Below the pieces are notes generated by a model. The model did not search any database. It was not told where the DNA came from and saw only the letters and a list, made by a program, of their open reading frames with translations. From a virus, in the IMG/VR virus record IMGVR_UViG_3300020451_000280, positions 1 to 47,402 of that record: a stretch of 47,402 nt of DNA, one strand, 5' to 3'. Of the stretch, positions 3,301 through 34,469 are shown piece by piece (position 1 is the first letter of the stretch; each line of letters begins with the position of its first letter). The translations under genes were made by a program, and so were the position numbers.

Positions 3301-6300
3301 CAGGTGAATACGCACGTATTATAGGTGCATCAGATGGTTCGAATGGAACTGACGATTATCCAGGAAAACTGATATTTTCTACAACTGCTGATGGTGGTTC
3401 AAGTCCAACAGAAAGACTTCGTATCAACAGCTCGGGTCAGGTGCTGATTGGTGCCACAAGCGGCGGCGGTTTATTTTCGGTTCATCAGGCTACTAGTTCG
3501 ACCTCTAATTACATAAACATTACCAATGACGCCACTGGTTCTTCTTCGTGGGCGAATGGAATGCTCTTGGGTAACAATGCGTCTGGCGATGCATTGGTCT
3601 GGCAAAATGAAAACCTAAATTTAATTTTTGGAACCAACAATAACGAGCGGATGCGTATAACCGCTACTGGAAGAATGGGATTGGGAACCCAAAATCCAAC
3701 ATCAACATTACATGTTAGTGGTACTGTAACTGCTACAACTTTCAGTGGTTCCGGTGCATCACTCACCAATATTCCTGCTGCTAATCTTACAGGAACACTC
3801 CCAGCGATTAGTGGTGCTAATCTCACTAATCTTGATGCTTCAGACCTCGCTTCAGGCACAGTTCCTGATGGTAGATTCCCTGCCACACTTCCTGCAGCTA
3901 GTGGCGCTAATTTAACAAATTTACCAGCTGCAAACATAACAGGAACTTTACCGGCAATCAGCGGTGCAAACTTAACGAACTTAAATGGTTCGAATATTTC
4001 TTCGGGAACAGTTGCTGCCGCGAGGGTTGGTGCTCTTCCCGCAAGTAAAATCACTACAGGCACATTTGATGCTGCTAGAATTCCTACTCTTAATCAGGAT
4101 ACAACAGGAACTGCTGCTGGGTTAACGGGAACTCCAAATATAACTGTTGGAACTGTAACAGCAGCATCTTTAGATATTTCTGGAAACGTTGATGTTGATG
4201 GGACACTAGAAGCAGATGCTATCACTATTGATGGAGCAACTCTCGCAGAAACTATTTCCGACACTGTAGGAGCAATGGTTTCCAGTAATACCGAAACTGG
4301 CATTACTGTTGCATATCAAGATAGTGATAATACTCTTGATTTTTCCATTGGAACATTAAATCAAGATACAACAGGAACTGCTGCACTTGCAGAGGGTCTG
4401 ACTGGTTCACCTACTATTGGCGTCAGCACAATTACAACTACTGGTAGTGTAGGAATAGGTTCCACACTACCAACAGGTAAACTTGACGTTTTAGGTCAAG
4501 TAAACATCAAATCTACATCGACCACAACAACATCCGGAATAGCAACATCATATACTGGATCTGTTTATCTTGATGGCAATAGTGATTATCTAACAGTTCC
4601 TGGTCCTGGAACATTAGCAGCAAGTTCTAACTGGACTTTAGAATGCTATTTCTATTGCACTGGTACTTCTAGTGGAACTTATAGAATTGTTGGTGCCAAT
4701 GAAAGTGTAAATGGATCTCAATATTCTTTTATTAGGATCAGGAATGGTCAGTATCAGTTTTTTACTGATAATGCATATAGTAGTACAGTTGGAACTGCTA
4801 CTTTTAATGCATGGCACCATATTGCATTTACAAAAACTGGAACAACTCTGCGTGGTTTTGTTGATGGGGTCAAAATTTATGAGGCAACAGACAATAATTC
4901 AGATAGTATTACAACATTTGTTGTTGGATGGGGTTATGGAAGTGAATATTTCCCAGGATATATTTCAAATGTAAGATTTGTAAATGGCACTTCTCTTTAC
5001 AAAGAGAACTTCACTCCCCAGACAGCAGAACTTACCAAAATTTATAATACTACTCACCTTTTAGCACAGTCTTCAAGTTCAGCAACTGCAGAAGCGACTG
5101 GCAAAACTGTGACTGCTGTTGGCACTGCTGCAGCATCAACAACAAATCCAAGTCTTGTAAAAGGATTTGATTTGTCTGGTTCTGTTGAACTTGATGGAAC
5201 TGGTGATTATCTTAGTGTAACTCATTCTGATTTAGCATTAGGTACGGGAGACTTTACACTTGAATTTTGGACGTACATACACACTCAAAACGCTGGATAT
5301 GATGCAGTATTTGAAAGTCGATCATCTACTAGCGCAACTGATGGATTTACTATTGGAAGATTTGGAACTTCTGGTCATGTTAATAAGTTTTCAATGTTTT
5401 TCGGTGGAAATTATAGATCAGAAGCAGATACAACAGTTGCAAACAATACATGGTCTCATGTAGCACTTGTTAGATTTAATGGTACAACTACATTATACTT
5501 AAATGGTATAGCAGGGTCCACAACTTATAGTGACTCAAATAATTATAGCAACACTTCTGTAAAGATTGGTGTTAATGCAAGTAACTCTAACGATTTTGAT
5601 GGAAATATCTCCAACTTACGTTTAGTTAAAGGAACCGCACTTTATACATCTAACTTCTCCCCAACATTTACTGAACTTACAAATTTACCAAATACAAAAC
5701 TTCTTGCGTTTCAATCATCAAGTTCTGCAACAGCTGAAGCAACTGGTAAAACTATTACTGCTGTTGGTAATGCTGCTGCATCAACAACAAGTCCCGGATT
5801 AATCTCACCAAATAGTCTCACTGGTTCTGTTGATTTTGATGGAACAGGTGATTACTTAACAGTCGCCGATAGTTCTTTAAATCCAGGAACAGGTGATTTT
5901 GCTGTAGAGGCATTTGTTAAATTTGCAAGCAATTCTGGAACTAGAAGAGCAGTGGTTATGGACACCACTGCATATGGTTCCAATAGTTTAAGTATTCAAC
6001 AATATAATAATGGATTTGAATTTTATTGTGGTGGTCAAAATCACTATACAAGTGGTTTTGACATGACAATATGGCATCACGCGCTGATCACAAGAAAGAG
6101 TAATACAATAAGATATATTGTCGATGGTAAAATAATAGGAACAGATACTAGTTCTAACAACATTTATGGTGAACCTACAAATACATTAACTATTGGTGGA
6201 TATAATAGTGTTTCCAATAGTGAGTATATGGGGGGTTATATTAGTAATGTAAGATTAGTTGTAGGTTCTGTTCCATCTGAGTATGAAACGACATCTACAT

Positions 6301-30793: not shown

Positions 30794-31282
30794 ATGATTA
30801 ATGCGTGGTCCCTTTTATTTGATGAACTGAACATGTTTAAACAAGATTATAGTGAAGAGGATAATATTGATCTTTCCTCTTTCGTTGTTGGAGGTTCGGG
30901 GACAGATACTCTGTCCCTTGATAGTGAATCCTTGACATTTAACGTCAGCGTTCCTAAACTGCCTGATACTCCCAAGAACGAAAATGGTTTTTGGAAGTAT
31001 CATGAGGATGTAATCCTCAAAGAGATTCGTGAGTATCTTGGTGGAACCTATCGTTCACACTATGCTTCTCCCGAATCACAAACTCAGACACTTGATCTGA
31101 TTGAAGGTATTGGTGATGCAGAACCTTTCTGTCGATCTAATGCTATCAAGTACCTTTCGCGATTTGGTAAGAAAGGTGGAAAGTCTAAACAAGACATTCT
31201 GAAGGCAATTCATTATTGCATCCTTCTCTATCATTTCGCTGGCCTCTGTAATGAAACTTCGACCCCTTATGAAACTTTCTGA
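30794..31282 (+). CDS. DUF3310-like protein
   Basis: 162 residues. The C-terminal half (YRSHYASPESQTQTLDLIEGIGDAEPFCRSNAIKYLSRFGKKGG-S-QDILKAIHYCILL) is the DUF3310 module found in many phages, sometimes linked to nucleotide metabolism but without a proven role. The N-terminal 60 residues are acidic and Ser/Leu-rich. A second possible start is ATG 30833. Its end overlaps the start region of gp45. Confidence 0.75.
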   Translation: MINAWSLLFDELNMFKQDYSEEDNIDLSSFVVGGSGTDTLSLDSESLTFNVSVPKLPDTPKNENGFWKYHEDVILKEIREYLGGTYRSHYASPESQTQTLDLIEGIGDAEPFCRSNAIKYLSRFGKKGGKSKQDILKAIHYCILLYHFAGLCNETSTPYETF

Positions 31283-31934
31283 TAAAACTATTTCTGTCCT
31301 GAAGAACTTCTCTTCTATTAATCAGTCTATTCTTTTTAAGGAAGGTAGCAAACTTCGCACTATCAGTGTGATGAAAAACATTCTTGCAGAAGCAACAGTT
31401 ACTGAAGAGTTCTCTCGTGACTTTGGAATCTATGATCTCAATCAGTTTCTAAATGGATTGAGTCTGCACTCTAGTCCAGAACTTGATTTTGCGAATGATG
31501 GATACGTTGTTATTCGTGAAGGTCGTTCTCGATCCAAGTATTTCTTTGCTGATCCTAATGTCATTGTGACTCCTCCAGAGAAAGTAATTTCTCTCCCCAC
31601 AGAGGATGTCTGCTTTGAACTTTCTACATTAGTTCTGGATAAACTCCTGAAAGCAGCAGCAGTATATCAACTGCCTGATATTTGTGCTGTTGGTGAGAAT
31701 GGTGTTGTGAAACTCGTTGTTCGAGACCGTAAGAATGATACCTCTAATGCTCACGAAGAAGTTGTAGGTGAAACTGACAAAGTGTTTTCCTTTAACTTTA
31801 AGGTTGAGAATATCAAGGTTCTTCCTGGAACTTATGATGTAGTTGTTTCACAAAAACTTCTATCACGATTCACCAGTAAAAATCATGATTTAACTTATTA
31901 CATTGCGTTGGAACCTGATTCTACATTTGGATGA
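31269..31934 (+). CDS. gp45: Sliding clamp
   Basis: 221 residues from ATG 31269 (MKLSDKTISVLKNFSSINQSILF, the usual gp45 start); the upstream in-frame ATG at 31251 is less likely. It forms the trimeric DNA ring that tethers polymerase gp43 and also activates late transcription with gp55. Length matches T4 (228). The chain ends with YDVVVSQKLLSRFTSKNHDLTYYIALEPDSTFG. Gene order gp45-gp44-gp62-regA-gp43 is as in T4, with small genes inserted. Confidence 0.94.
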   Translation: MKLSDKTISVLKNFSSINQSILFKEGSKLRTISVMKNILAEATVTEEFSRDFGIYDLNQFLNGLSLHSSPELDFANDGYVVIREGRSRSKYFFADPNVIVTPPEKVISLPTEDVCFELSTLVLDKLLKAAAVYQLPDICAVGENGVVKLVVRDRKNDTSNAHEEVVGETDKVFSFNFKVENIKVLPGTYDVVVSQKLLSRFTSKNHDLTYYIALEPDSTFG

Positions 31935-31939
31935 GATGA

Positions 31940-32182
31940 GTGAAAACACTTTATATCCATGATCTTGGAAATGGTTGCTGTATAACACATGATGGTTATA
32001 TTCAACTAGGATATATGTGCCATAGTTTGGAAAAGCATAAGGAGTTAAACCCAACAATAAACTGGGTTGTGACTTACTGGTTGCCTGACGTATTCAAGGA
32101 CAGATATCCAAGAGCCACAATGCAGTCGCATCAACGGATATCTGACGGTAAACTAGGTTGTGAGAAACTAAAAGACAAATGA
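31940..32182 (+). CDS. Small unidentified protein
   Basis: 80 residues from GTG 31940, 5 bases after gp45; no in-frame ATG upstream. KTLYIHDLGNGCCITHDGYIQLGYMCHSL is followed by WVVTYWLPDVFKDRYPRATMQSHQR. Several Cys and His but no recognised motif. Its stop overlaps the next ATG (ATGA). Confidence 0.65.
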   Translation: MKTLYIHDLGNGCCITHDGYIQLGYMCHSLEKHKELNPTINWVVTYWLPDVFKDRYPRATMQSHQRISDGKLGCEKLKDK

Positions 32183-32706
32183 ACATCTTTGTGACAGACC
32201 CCAATCCGGTGATTTGTGCTCAGGTTCTTCCTGACAAACACATCGTCAAGATGCCCTTAGAGTGCTGTCAGATGCTCTCTATCGTTGCCTCTGAGAAATG
32301 GGGGCATGGGTTCGGCAACCTCCCTAAGGCGGATGGAACGCCATACAAAACCACCAAAGGAGCATTTCGTAATCACCCCTGCACTGTGTGGGCAAGTGAC
32401 TTCGTGCTCAACTGGCGTTGGTTGATTCAACATGGACTTGCTCTGTGCGAAGAGTATTCTCACAGATACCAAAAGATTCACACTTGCTTACACACTCTTG
32501 CATACGCAAATCAAATCTTTCCTTACGGTGATCCAGCAGGACGCTCTGGTAAAGAACCCAAACCATTCGCCCGAGCAATGCCTGATGAGTTTAAATATGA
32601 CACAAGCATTGACACTTTTACTGCTTACAAAATGTACATTAGCAGCAAACCTTGGGTTGCATCTAATTATCTTCGTGACCCATCCAGAAAACCGGATTGG
32701 GTATGA
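32179..32706 (+). CDS. Conserved phage protein of unknown function (MNIFVTDPNP family)
   Basis: 175 residues. It begins MNIFVTDPNPVICAQVLPDKHIVKMPLECCQMLS, a start seen in a family widespread in T4-like and other large phages. Later it has HPCTVWASDFVLNWRWLI and FARAMPDEFK-DTFTAYKMYISSKPW. It has many Trp, His and Cys residues. It is mostly helical, probably enzymatic or nucleic-acid related, but I cannot name a reaction. Confidence 0.7.
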   Translation: MNIFVTDPNPVICAQVLPDKHIVKMPLECCQMLSIVASEKWGHGFGNLPKADGTPYKTTKGAFRNHPCTVWASDFVLNWRWLIQHGLALCEEYSHRYQKIHTCLHTLAYANQIFPYGDPAGRSGKEPKPFARAMPDEFKYDTSIDTFTAYKMYISSKPWVASNYLRDPSRKPDWV

Positions 32707-32709
32707 TTC

Positions 32710-33045
32710 ATGAAACACATACTTTTTACCTTAAAGGGATGTTGTCCTGAACTTCTTGATAATAAAGAGTTCATTCGAGTTCTGTTATTCAGAGCATCAA
32801 AAGAATGTAAGTCTACTCTTTTGAATCTTGCAGTTCATAAGTTTGATCCTCAAGGTGTTACTTGTGTTGCTATGCTTGCAGAGAGTCACATCAGTATTCA
32901 CACATGGCCGGAGAAAGGAATGGCAGTATGTGATGTATTCACATGTGGAGAAACTGCTACACCTGAAAATGGTGTAGAATATATGAAAGAACAATTGAAG
33001 GCAACTGATATTGTGTCAGAACAATTTGAAAGACCTTTAGAATGA
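32710..33045 (+). CDS. speH: S-adenosylmethionine decarboxylase proenzyme
   Basis: 111 residues, the size of bacterial class-1B SpeH. It makes decarboxylated AdoMet, the aminopropyl donor for spermidine. The self-cleavage site is E58-S59 in AESHISIHTWPE (S59 becomes the pyruvoyl group), with H64 and C79 (VFTCGE) at the same spacing as the processing and catalytic His and Cys in the Thermotoga enzyme. No spermidine synthase is visible here, so host SpeE would finish the pathway. Its last 19 bases are repeated exactly at 33368. Confidence 0.93.
   Translation: MKHILFTLKGCCPELLDNKEFIRVLLFRASKECKSTLLNLAVHKFDPQGVTCVAMLAESHISIHTWPEKGMAVCDVFTCGETATPENGVEYMKEQLKATDIVSEQFERPLE
33027..33045 (+). repeat. 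19-bp direct repeat, left copy
   Basis: TGAAAGACCTTTAGAATGA, the last codons and stop of speH. Identical to 33368-33386; together they bracket the Coq4-like gene. Confidence 0.95.
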
Positions 33046-33046
33046 T

Positions 33047-33370
33047 ATGGAACCAGATCCTTACGTTCAGTTTTTAGAAAATTGGATACCTGGAATAGGT
33101 GAAGATACTAAACTTCACGATCAACTTCATAACCATTTTAATCTTGGATTTAGTGTAAATGATGAAGCAAAACTCCTTGGATTTCAGTTAGGTCATCATC
33201 CTGCTGGAAATTTTTTTCATGTTGTGGTATTCTGTGTTATGAGCGTTACGATATATCCAAATAGTTATCGTAACAGTTTGAAAGATCTGCAAGATTTTTA
33301 TGAAGCATATTTGCTTGGAAAATACTGGCAGTCCGTTTCCTATTGGTTCATTCCCAAAACAATATTATGA
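33047..33370 (+). CDS. Coq4-like protein
   Basis: 107 residues. It contains HDQLH followed by exactly 11 residues and Glu (LHDQLHNHFNLGFSVNDE), which is the HDxxHx11E metal-ligand motif of Coq4, a scaffold/enzyme of ubiquinone biosynthesis with homologues in cyanobacteria. A helical continuation (LLGFQLGHHPAGNFFHVVVF, LKDLQDFYEAYLLGKYW) also fits. It is about half the length of cellular Coq4, keeping only the core. The gene sits between two copies of a 19-bp repeat and separates speH from the small gene at 33383. The family is inferred from the motif; a quinone role in infection is speculation. Confidence 0.6.
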   Translation: MEPDPYVQFLENWIPGIGEDTKLHDQLHNHFNLGFSVNDEAKLLGFQLGHHPAGNFFHVVVFCVMSVTIYPNSYRNSLKDLQDFYEAYLLGKYWQSVSYWFIPKTIL

Positions 33371-33386
33371 AAGACCTTTAGAATGA
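33368..33386 (+). repeat. 19-bp direct repeat, right copy
   Basis: Second copy of TGAAAGACCTTTAGAATGA, 341 bases downstream of the first. Its first three bases are the stop of the Coq4-like gene; its ATGA contains the start codon of the next gene. Confidence 0.95.
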
Positions 33387-33532
33387 AAACCACTTTAACC
33401 ATTGAGAATGATGAATTTCTAACCTTCACTCCAGAAATCCTAGAAGCAACTGGATGGAAAGAGGGAGATGTGTTAGAATGGATTGATAATAATGATGGTT
33501 CATTTACTTTGGTGAAACAAGAACATGCGTAA
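33383..33532 (+). CDS. Mini AbrB/SpoVT-like DNA-binding protein
   Basis: 49 residues: MKTTLTIENDEFLTF, then TPEILEATGWKEGDVLEW and GSFTLVK. The 'P-E-L...GW-EGD-L-W' core and final strand are those of the AbrB/MazE swapped-hairpin fold. It is a single domain, enough to form a dimer. Possibly a transcription regulator or an antitoxin-like protein; no toxin gene adjoins it. The end overlaps the gp44 start by 8 bases. Confidence 0.7.
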   Translation: MKTTLTIENDEFLTFTPEILEATGWKEGDVLEWIDNNDGSFTLVKQEHA

Positions 33533-34469
33533 TGAATTTCTTTGGGTTGAAAAATATCGACCTAAAACAATTGAAGAATGTATTTTACCTTCGGAAACAA
33601 AAAAAACTTTTAAAAGTTTCCTAGATAAGGGAGAGATACCAAACATGCTACTTGCTGGTCCTGCTGGATGTGGCAAGACTACGGTAGCAAAAGCACTATG
33701 TAATGAATTGGGAGTAGATAATTATGTCATCAACGGATCCGATGAAGGACGCTTCCTTGATACGGTCAGAAATACTGCAAAAAATTTCGCTTCGACCGTA
33801 TCACTTTCGTCAACTGCTCGACACAAAGTCATCATCATCGATGAAGCAGATAACACAACAAACGACGTACAACTCTTATTACGGGCGTTTATTGAGGAGT
33901 TTCATGGCAACTGCCGATTCATCTTCACCTGCAACTTTAAAAACAAAATTCTTGAACCGCTTCACTCCAGAACCACAGTCGTCGAGTTCGGAATCAACGG
34001 AAAGCAAAAACCCGCAATCGCCGCCGCCTTCTTTAAACGAATCCAAGAAATCTTGGATACAGAAAGTATTGAATATGATAACAAGGTCCTGGTAGAACTT
34101 ATCAATAAACACTTCCCTGATTGGAGACGTGTTCTTAATGAATGTCAGAGGTATGCTGCTAGTGGTAAGATTGACTCTGGTATTCTTGCAACCTTTAGTG
34201 ACGTAAAAGTAAATGACCTGGTTAAAAAACTTAAAGAGAAAGATTATCCCGAAGTACGTAAATGGGTTGTCAATAACTTGGACAACGATACTAGTGTACT
34301 TCTGCGTCGTATTTACGATGCTTGTTATGATTCCATGGTCCCGAGTAGTATTCCTTCTGCTGTGCTTTGTCTTGCTCGGTATCAATATCAGATGGCGTTC
34401 GTGGCGGATCAAGAAATAAATATGCTTGCTTGTCTTACTGAAATCATGGTGGAGTGTGAATTCAAATGA
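33525..34469 (+). CDS. gp44: Clamp loader large subunit
   Basis: 314 residues (319 in T4). AAA+ ATPase that, with gp62, opens and loads gp45. FLWVEKYRPKTIEECILP start; Walker A GPAGCGKT (45-52); Walker B IIIDEADN; sensor-1 FTCNF; arginine-finger segment LHSRTTVVEF where T4 has SRC. Starts inside the previous small gene and ends in an ATGA overlap with the next. Confidence 0.95.
   Translation: MRNEFLWVEKYRPKTIEECILPSETKKTFKSFLDKGEIPNMLLAGPAGCGKTTVAKALCNELGVDNYVINGSDEGRFLDTVRNTAKNFASTVSLSSTARHKVIIIDEADNTTNDVQLLLRAFIEEFHGNCRFIFTCNFKNKILEPLHSRTTVVEFGINGKQKPAIAAAFFKRIQEILDTESIEYDNKVLVELINKHFPDWRRVLNECQRYAASGKIDSGILATFSDVKVNDLVKKLKEKDYPEVRKWVVNNLDNDTSVLLRRIYDACYDSMVPSSIPSAVLCLARYQYQMAFVADQEINMLACLTEIMVECEFK

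Follow-up and report, generated by a model that had tools for sequence, protein, structure and literature searches.

Most probably, the small gene INS (inserted gene, 107 aa) was inserted into a cyanophage genome at the ATGA junction of speH and an AbrB-like gene, through recombination with a donor phage in which INS already followed speH, and the same class of event has recurred at gp44 and at a denV-like gene. The footprint of these events is a junction signature, a 17–26 nt repeat of the end of the upstream gene, which is found with filled and empty sister genomes.

A 19-bp repeat of the speH end brackets INS

The window analyzed here is IMG/VR virus record IMGVR_UViG_3300020451_000280, a 47,402-bp stretch of marine cyanophage DNA, and all genes located below are on its plus strand. 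The interval from gp45 to gp44 (31251..34469) holds variable cargo, in which INS, the denV-like gene, speH, the AbrB-like gene, and others are reshuffled (gene orders in L001–L096). In the window, speH/speD (S-adenosylmethionine decarboxylase; 32710..33045; PF02675, E 1.5e-34), whose 3′ end is duplicated downstream, is followed by INS (33047..33370), a conserved cyanophage cargo gene with chromosomal homologues in Synechococcus, then by a small AbrB/MazE-like gene (49 aa; 33383..33532), and downstream of it by the core gene for the gp44 clamp loader (33525..34469; phrog_168, E 2.1e-132). The label “AbrB-like”, taken over from the first-pass annotation, is backed by a PF04014 match (E 1.8e-4) that stays below the cut-off, with 21.8 bits against the 24.7 of Pfam MazE_antitoxin.

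The perfect 19-bp direct repeat that had been noticed around INS, TGAAAGACCTTTAGAATGA, was found at 33027-33045 and 33368-33386, and nowhere else in the 47,402-bp window did such a pair occur when up to 3 mismatches were allowed. By chance 0.02 matches would be expected, and two copies occurred in 0/100 shuffles; when mismatches were allowed, the match extended to 26 nt at 88%. The left copy (33027..33045, plus strand) consists of the last 16 coding nt and the stop codon of speH, while the right copy (33368..33386, plus strand) consists of the INS stop codon (33368-33370, its first 3 nt), a 12-nt speH-derived tail, and the ATGA that starts the AbrB-like gene, so the earlier reading of both copies agreed with the coordinates. 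Insert-free contigs L091 and L093–L096 have a single copy of the repeat sequence at the speH end. In most relatives listed, the speH protein closes with F-x-R-P-L-E-stop. Given this conserved terminus, the right copy is duplicated speH coding sequence rather than a regulatory motif occurring at two places.

Empty sites and the direction of the change

The first-pass annotation had predicted that dropping one repeat unit (341 bp) would leave speH and the AbrB-like gene joined by ATGA. This form, with no INS between the two genes, was found in the close relatives L062, L098, L183, L184, and L185, whose speH has 94–97% amino acid identity to that of the window (for L183 over 141 nt of speH only), and also in 15 contigs with more distant speH. 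L062 has 93–97% nucleotide identity to the window over gp45, the denV-like gene, speH, the AbrB-like gene, and gp44. When L184, L098, and L062 were aligned to the window, the flank matches ended at 33045 and started at 33368, and the two flanking alignments overlapped by exactly 19 nt at the empty site, where the single copy differed from the window repeat by one base (G for A). Because of this exact 19-nt overlap, the alignments showed an insertion between coupled genes with duplication of the junction, as had been proposed. The filled, scarred form was present in four contigs (the window, L011/L092, L012, and L013), and an assembly error is unlikely because the scar is also in 3 further IMG/VR contigs besides the window. 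In the isolates Bellamy, S-SM2, and S-CAM22, annotated speH is joined to gp44 with neither INS nor the AbrB-like gene between them, and therefore the AbrB-like gene is itself variable cargo.

A check for other cargo between the same repeats gave none at speH, and the equivalent arrangement was found at gp44 and the denV-like gene. Contigs L144, L149, and L153 were tried as other-cargo scars at speH/AbrB-like and rejected, since their cargo differs but the tail copy is absent. No secondary loss of INS from a scarred site was seen among the relatives examined.

The state of the two copies bears on whether such a loss could happen. The window and L092 have 5 differences over 14,781 bp, one of which is at 33375 in the right copy, the sole site where the two copies of L092 differ. 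The right copy has C at this site in the window and L012 and T in L092 and L013, and the left copy has C in all four. Conversion of the right copy by the left copy in the window lineage fits these sequences best, with a chance mutation in L092 as the less likely alternative; more than one change is needed because L012 also has C. The two copies thus look recently homogenized in the window, so they may recombine, and recombination between them could remove INS precisely. This same property would permit the reverse polarity in principle, with the two-copy state ancestral and the ATGA-joined genomes having lost INS by precise recombination between the 19-bp direct repeats. But the joined form is spread over 5 close and 15 more distant contigs, whereas the two-copy form was found in 4 contigs with one INS clade, and L062, empty at speH/AbrB-like, carries a different, distant INS allele (80% nucleotide identity) adjoining gp45. 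We consider the reverse polarity very unlikely and read the scar as a gain of INS.

The same footprint at other genes

The same arrangement at other genes turned up in an exact-repeat scan of the loci: the last 17–26 nt of the upstream gene are repeated after the cargo, and this second copy extends to the start codon of the following gene. The last 22 nt of gp44 recurred within 1.8 kb downstream in 11/111 distinct loci at ≤4 mismatches and in 17/111 at ≤5, the loci having been chosen through relatives of INS, speH, and the AbrB-like gene, with IMG/VR contigs being fragments. Seven control probes per locus (the reverse complement, the upstream side, and five internal gp44 segments) gave 0/777 at ≤4 mismatches and 3/777 at ≤5. 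A second sample was drawn by the exact gp44 end, with 80 loci kept among at least 120 matches and 75 usable, 2 of which have a gp44 end and flank already represented in the first sample; it gave 5/75 loci against 1/516 controls at ≤4 mismatches, and 7/75 against 5/516 at ≤5, four of these five being upstream-side probes. In L406, L409, and L435 of the second sample, an exact 20-nt gp44 end closes other reading frames away from gp44, and these are probable further right-hand copies.

Counted by gene at ≤4 mismatches, tails were duplicated in 11/116 cases for gp44, 3/90 distinct tails for speH (one event, with the window flank identical to that of L011 and merged with it), and 2/100 for the denV-like gene. 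The counts were 0/140 for gp45, 0/112 for unk30794, 0/63 for unk34615, 0/59 for INS, 0/54 for the AbrB-like gene, 0/40 for dam, 0/37 for gp62, and 0/6 each for unk31940 and unk34466, and the controls gave 1 match. The gp44 3′ end is the commonest site of this kind of scar in the relatives examined, and comparison of these junctions showed recurrence of the footprint at gp44 and the denV-like gene. No scar was found at INS in its other positions, gp45 tails being duplicated in none of the 140 although INS often follows gp45, and the right-hand tail copy was absent for several genes after gp44.

A scan of nearly whole genomes (eight isolate cyanophages, G002, and T4, plus the window) found downstream recurrence at ≤4 mismatches for 16/2,828 predicted gene tails, compared with 8 and 7 for two internal control probes and 0 for the reverse-complement probe. 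Because most of the 16 recurring tails were gene-internal or promoter-like by eye, the footprint is locus-enriched, not general. A genome-wide rule was also rejected for exact repeats of ≥15 nt, which in the eight cyanophages, G002, and T4 were mostly intragenic or intergenic motifs; our guess is that the intragenic ones lie in tail-fibre genes. Further downstream-repeated tails with GGAGG were seen in L287 (S-SKS1; 236 nt) and L291 17218 (P-TIM68; 433 nt), and these may possibly be scars at other genes. Separately, mostly intergenic repeat families of 20–39 nt occur every 0.2–1.6 kb in L291 (P-TIM68), L301 (SynMITS9220M01), and L271 (S-SM2), and these are possibly promoter or regulatory cassettes.

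The control probes also bear on whether the right copy is a duplication at all, or a start-region sequence that arose by convergence under selection for translating the next gene. In favor of convergence, the copy runs up to the following start codon, and the block that is shared has roughly the length of a translation start region. But the copies match the coding end of the gene upstream at 19/19 or 18/19 positions, and this end is different at each gene, the second copy is absent at empty sites, and start regions do not resemble the upstream gene end as often in control probes (0/777 at ≤4 mismatches). In addition, the right copy of L005 keeps a variant of its own gp44 end, being nearer to its own left copy (1 mismatch) than to the general gp44 end (2 mismatches). 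Convergence is therefore hardly credible to us, and we treat the right copy as a duplication.

Filled and empty pairs and the anatomy of the insert

Pairs of filled and empty genomes were also found at gp44. The flanks of L036 (filled) and L035 (empty) align at 98.3% identity for 4,171 nt on one side and at 99.9% for 1,885 nt on the other; the two alignments overlap by 27 nt where the site is empty, and the contigs differ there by 309 bp. The overlap was 20 nt for L071 (filled) and L073 (empty), and 41 nt for L024 (filled) and L025 (empty), an alignment overlap that runs past the shared block. At denV-like/AbrB-like, L248, L249, L250, and L257 are filled with 119 bp containing a small ORF whose last residues are KPDWL*, the denV-like C-terminus, L247 is filled with 757 bp, and L245, L246, and L251–L254 are empty.

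In 26 measured copies (21 at gp44, 3 at speH, and 2 at the denV-like gene), the duplicated block of 17–26 nt, including the stop codon, corresponds to the 13–22 nt 5′ of the next start codon and reaches it. The cargo starts at gp44’s own ATGA in 14/15 gp44 loci and at TAATG in L201. Its end falls within the copy or shortly behind it, and each of the three frames is used (8, 7, and 2 of 17 copies in 15 gp44 loci), so there is no frame rule. Among the 17 loci found at ≤5 mismatches, L255 was omitted from the cargo-start analysis, and L094 and L255 from the block-length and frame analyses; L383 was filtered out of the block-length measurement, and L356 and L415 (5 mismatches, second sample) were outside further measurement. 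Retention of a Shine-Dalgarno sequence was rejected as a universal reason for the block, as by eye the gp44 tail has GGAG and the speH and denV-like tails have no clear one.

Since each repeat is different, these junctions also speak to site-specific cassette integration, in which an integrase would attach at gene 3′ ends and the repeats would be attL and attR. Integrase sites in tRNA genes have direct repeats at gene 3′ ends flanking cargo, and the cargo described here can be likened to them. But the repeat follows the speH, gp44, or denV-like end, which leaves no common core, and no integrase family match was found among the cargo proteins scanned, which makes this explanation highly improbable. 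As for transposons and IS elements, a short direct target duplication is present, namely the exact 19-nt overlap with empty sites. No transposase was found in the insert, INS having no Pfam, PHROG, or NCBIfam match, and none of the 9 inverted pairs in 33000-33420, which include one perfect 9-nt pair at 33245/33266, joins the two ends of the insert as terminal inverted repeats would.

Two stacked cassettes each were found in L013 and L166. In L013, positions 4479-6300 after gp44 hold two stacked segments (441 and 860 nt), each closing with a gp44 tail copy. The right copy of L227 has 3 mismatches to its own left copy and 0 to the general gp44 end, the right copies of L166 have 2 to their own left copy and 1 and 0 to the general end, and the cargo of L227 and L166 is 88% identical, which suggests that a cargo gene can move together with its tail. 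The element common to these scars is the tail, not the cargo.

Cargo scans covered 10 (Pfam) and 8 (PHROG) of 20 ORFs. The cargo of L003 matched phrog_16903, named methyltransferase. Tail-bearing gp44 cargo passed the Pfam cut-off for HNH_3 in L024, L054, L058, and L201 and stayed below it in L071, and L383 and L418 carry relatives of these HNH genes. In L418, two HNH-like genes of one family lie near gp44, and the one adjoining gp44 ends in a gp44-tail copy. HNH homing endonucleases might cleave core genes at their 3′ ends or close by, after which illegitimate repair would capture the endonuclease or other cargo and duplicate the gene end. One-sided illegitimate break repair with microhomology junctions is indeed described for T4 introns in the relevant passages of PMC2988022. 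But no Pfam match was found in five other scanned cargo proteins (L003, L190, L166, L013, and L077), INS likewise has no HNH match, and the HNH genes after gp44 in L404 and L380 have no right-hand tail. As the general cause of the scars we regard HNH cutting as rather unlikely, and we favor recombination between phages that share a gene end.

The INS protein and its distribution

The first-pass annotation had called INS “Coq4-like”. HDxxH-x11-E is the signature of the Coq4 metal site, and INS has it: HDxxH and the downstream E are invariant (H24, D25, H28, and E40 in 35 aligned sequences). There was no match in Pfam, PHROG, or NCBIfam, and a PF05019 (Coq4) search of the whole window record was empty while S. 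elongatus matched. What remained of the label was a remote profile match. A widened INS family profile aligned with cyanobacterial Coq4 (6 of 12 fetched loci used) with HDxxH/E in register (hhalign E 1.6e-4, probability 50%), and a narrower INS alignment gave E 0.079 and probability 0.7%. Coq4 is a reasonable lead for INS from these profiles, not a membership. No nuclease domain (HNH, GIY-YIG, LAGLIDADG, or other) was matched in INS by Pfam, and 34 INS relatives gave two chance-level Pfam matches to unrelated families. The AlphaFold2 model (pLDDT 74, pTM 0.69) predicts a probably all-helical protein; it had no PDB match with E ≤ 0.001, and VIA gave no informative match. Because there was no informative match to solved structures, we claim no function for INS.

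INS has 99 relatives in IMG/VR, of which 80 were kept. There were five matches among phage records, all in the S-TIM group, and the two of these that were inspected are both at an unrelated site. In S-TIM54, INS is interrupted (L009 3001-3141), with an annotated ORF of 46 aa and a match that spans the whole protein. Among family genomes, 11/201 matched INS at E ≤ 0.001, with four strong matches (E 1e-53 or better) and distant ones for the rest, and the chromosomal homologue in Synechococcus RCC307 has 69% identity. This homologue (L478, CT978603.1 ~464314-464628) lies ~6 kb from a PF05019 (Coq4) match at 457432-458004.

INS occupies several positions in the gp45–gp44 interval among relatives. 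A tree built from 66 distinct INS genes places all INS copies directly after speH in one 8-row clade (SH-aLRT 98), and on it neighbors changed at least 11 times on the left and at least 16 times on the right, with neighbors beyond 12 and 20 nt lumped as “other”. The speH-INS junction TGATATG is common to the window and the scar-free L016–L021, and it is TAATATG in the scar-free L014. Without a scar, the 3′ end of INS sits directly on the ATGA of gp44 (L016–L021) or of the AbrB-like gene (L014). The first codons of INS, GAACCNGATCC (window 33047-33062), resemble the gp45 3′ end GAACCTGATTC, and INS often adjoins gp45; this likeness could be microhomology or chance.

Proposed mechanism

The simplest account, whose steps we infer from the observed junction sequences, is that a donor with speH-INS recombined with a recipient with speH-AbrB-like. 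The left join would have formed by homology in the shared speH 3′ end. The right join would be illegitimate, between the INS end (ATTATGA) and the recipient speH end (TTTGAAAGACC), with TGA or TGAAA as microhomology roughly 16 nt upstream of the following start codon; the speH end would thereby be kept twice. The physical process may have been template switching or a microhomology-assisted illegitimate repair of a break, and homing endonucleases may initiate some events. Survivors would keep the native start region of the downstream gene, with longer duplications being unstable or rare, and an intact start region of the next gene is probably what selection keeps. Since events of this class, with other cargo, also occurred at gp44 and the denV-like gene, gain of cargo by this route is recurrent in the gp45–gp44 interval.

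A broader and more tentative possibility is that T4-like cyanophages gain small genes as start-to-start cassettes, each an ORF plus a copy of the upstream 3′ end that would provide both a stop codon (in the gp44 tail, in two frames) and the start region of the gene that follows. Such cassettes might be mobile by recombination at the shared gene end, stackable in tandem (L013 and L166), and precisely losable. With the footprint, recent gene gains in metagenomic phages can be polarized and counted, and one can test whether the survival of an insertion is decided by translation of the gene downstream.

Comparison with known systems

The original work on illegitimate repair in T4 intron acquisition is reportedly that of Parker et al. 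in 1999. As outlined in PMC2988022, in the sections on this point, T4 intron acquisition is an illegitimate, one-sided double-strand-break repair with microhomology. The events described here are similar in that one junction would form by homology and the other by microhomology, with DNA added at a new site, but the addition is a small ORF at a stop/start junction with the upstream 3′ end kept twice, and there is no intron. A PeSL is a promoter plus stem-loop at a gene junction. PeSLs are mobile regulatory cassettes of T4-type phages (Arbiol 2010 and Comeau 2014, as cited in PMC4503421), and their short shared junction sequences, proposed in that account to promote gene shuffling in T4-like phages, resemble ours, whereas our repeat consists of upstream-gene coding sequence. 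A scan of the locus for sigma-70-like promoters and terminators, which does not cover phage-specific promoters, found none, and a fold scan found no notable hairpin. As with the free-standing homing endonuclease genes of T4-like phages, some gp44 scar cargo encodes HNH endonucleases, but INS and the other scanned cargo are not recognizable endonucleases.

Another comparable setting is that of the hyperplastic or variable regions of cyanomyoviruses, where cargo clusters between core genes and variability is tied to recombination (PMC4503421, PMC6722890, and PMC3037559, in their passages on these regions). Our interval shares the clustering and the link to recombination; unlike the regions as described in those passages, which report no junction footprint, it has a defined duplication with empty-site pairs. 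In its part on imported DNA, a 2010 review of T4-related genomes says that junctions with the core typically lack a known mobile-element signature and give few clues to the agents (PMC2993671). No earlier description of this footprint was found in the open-access literature, a scope that most subscription papers fall outside. Illegitimate repair is thus a kind of event already known, and the tail-duplication footprint with filled and empty sisters is new among the literature searched, as far as the consulted portions of these sources go.
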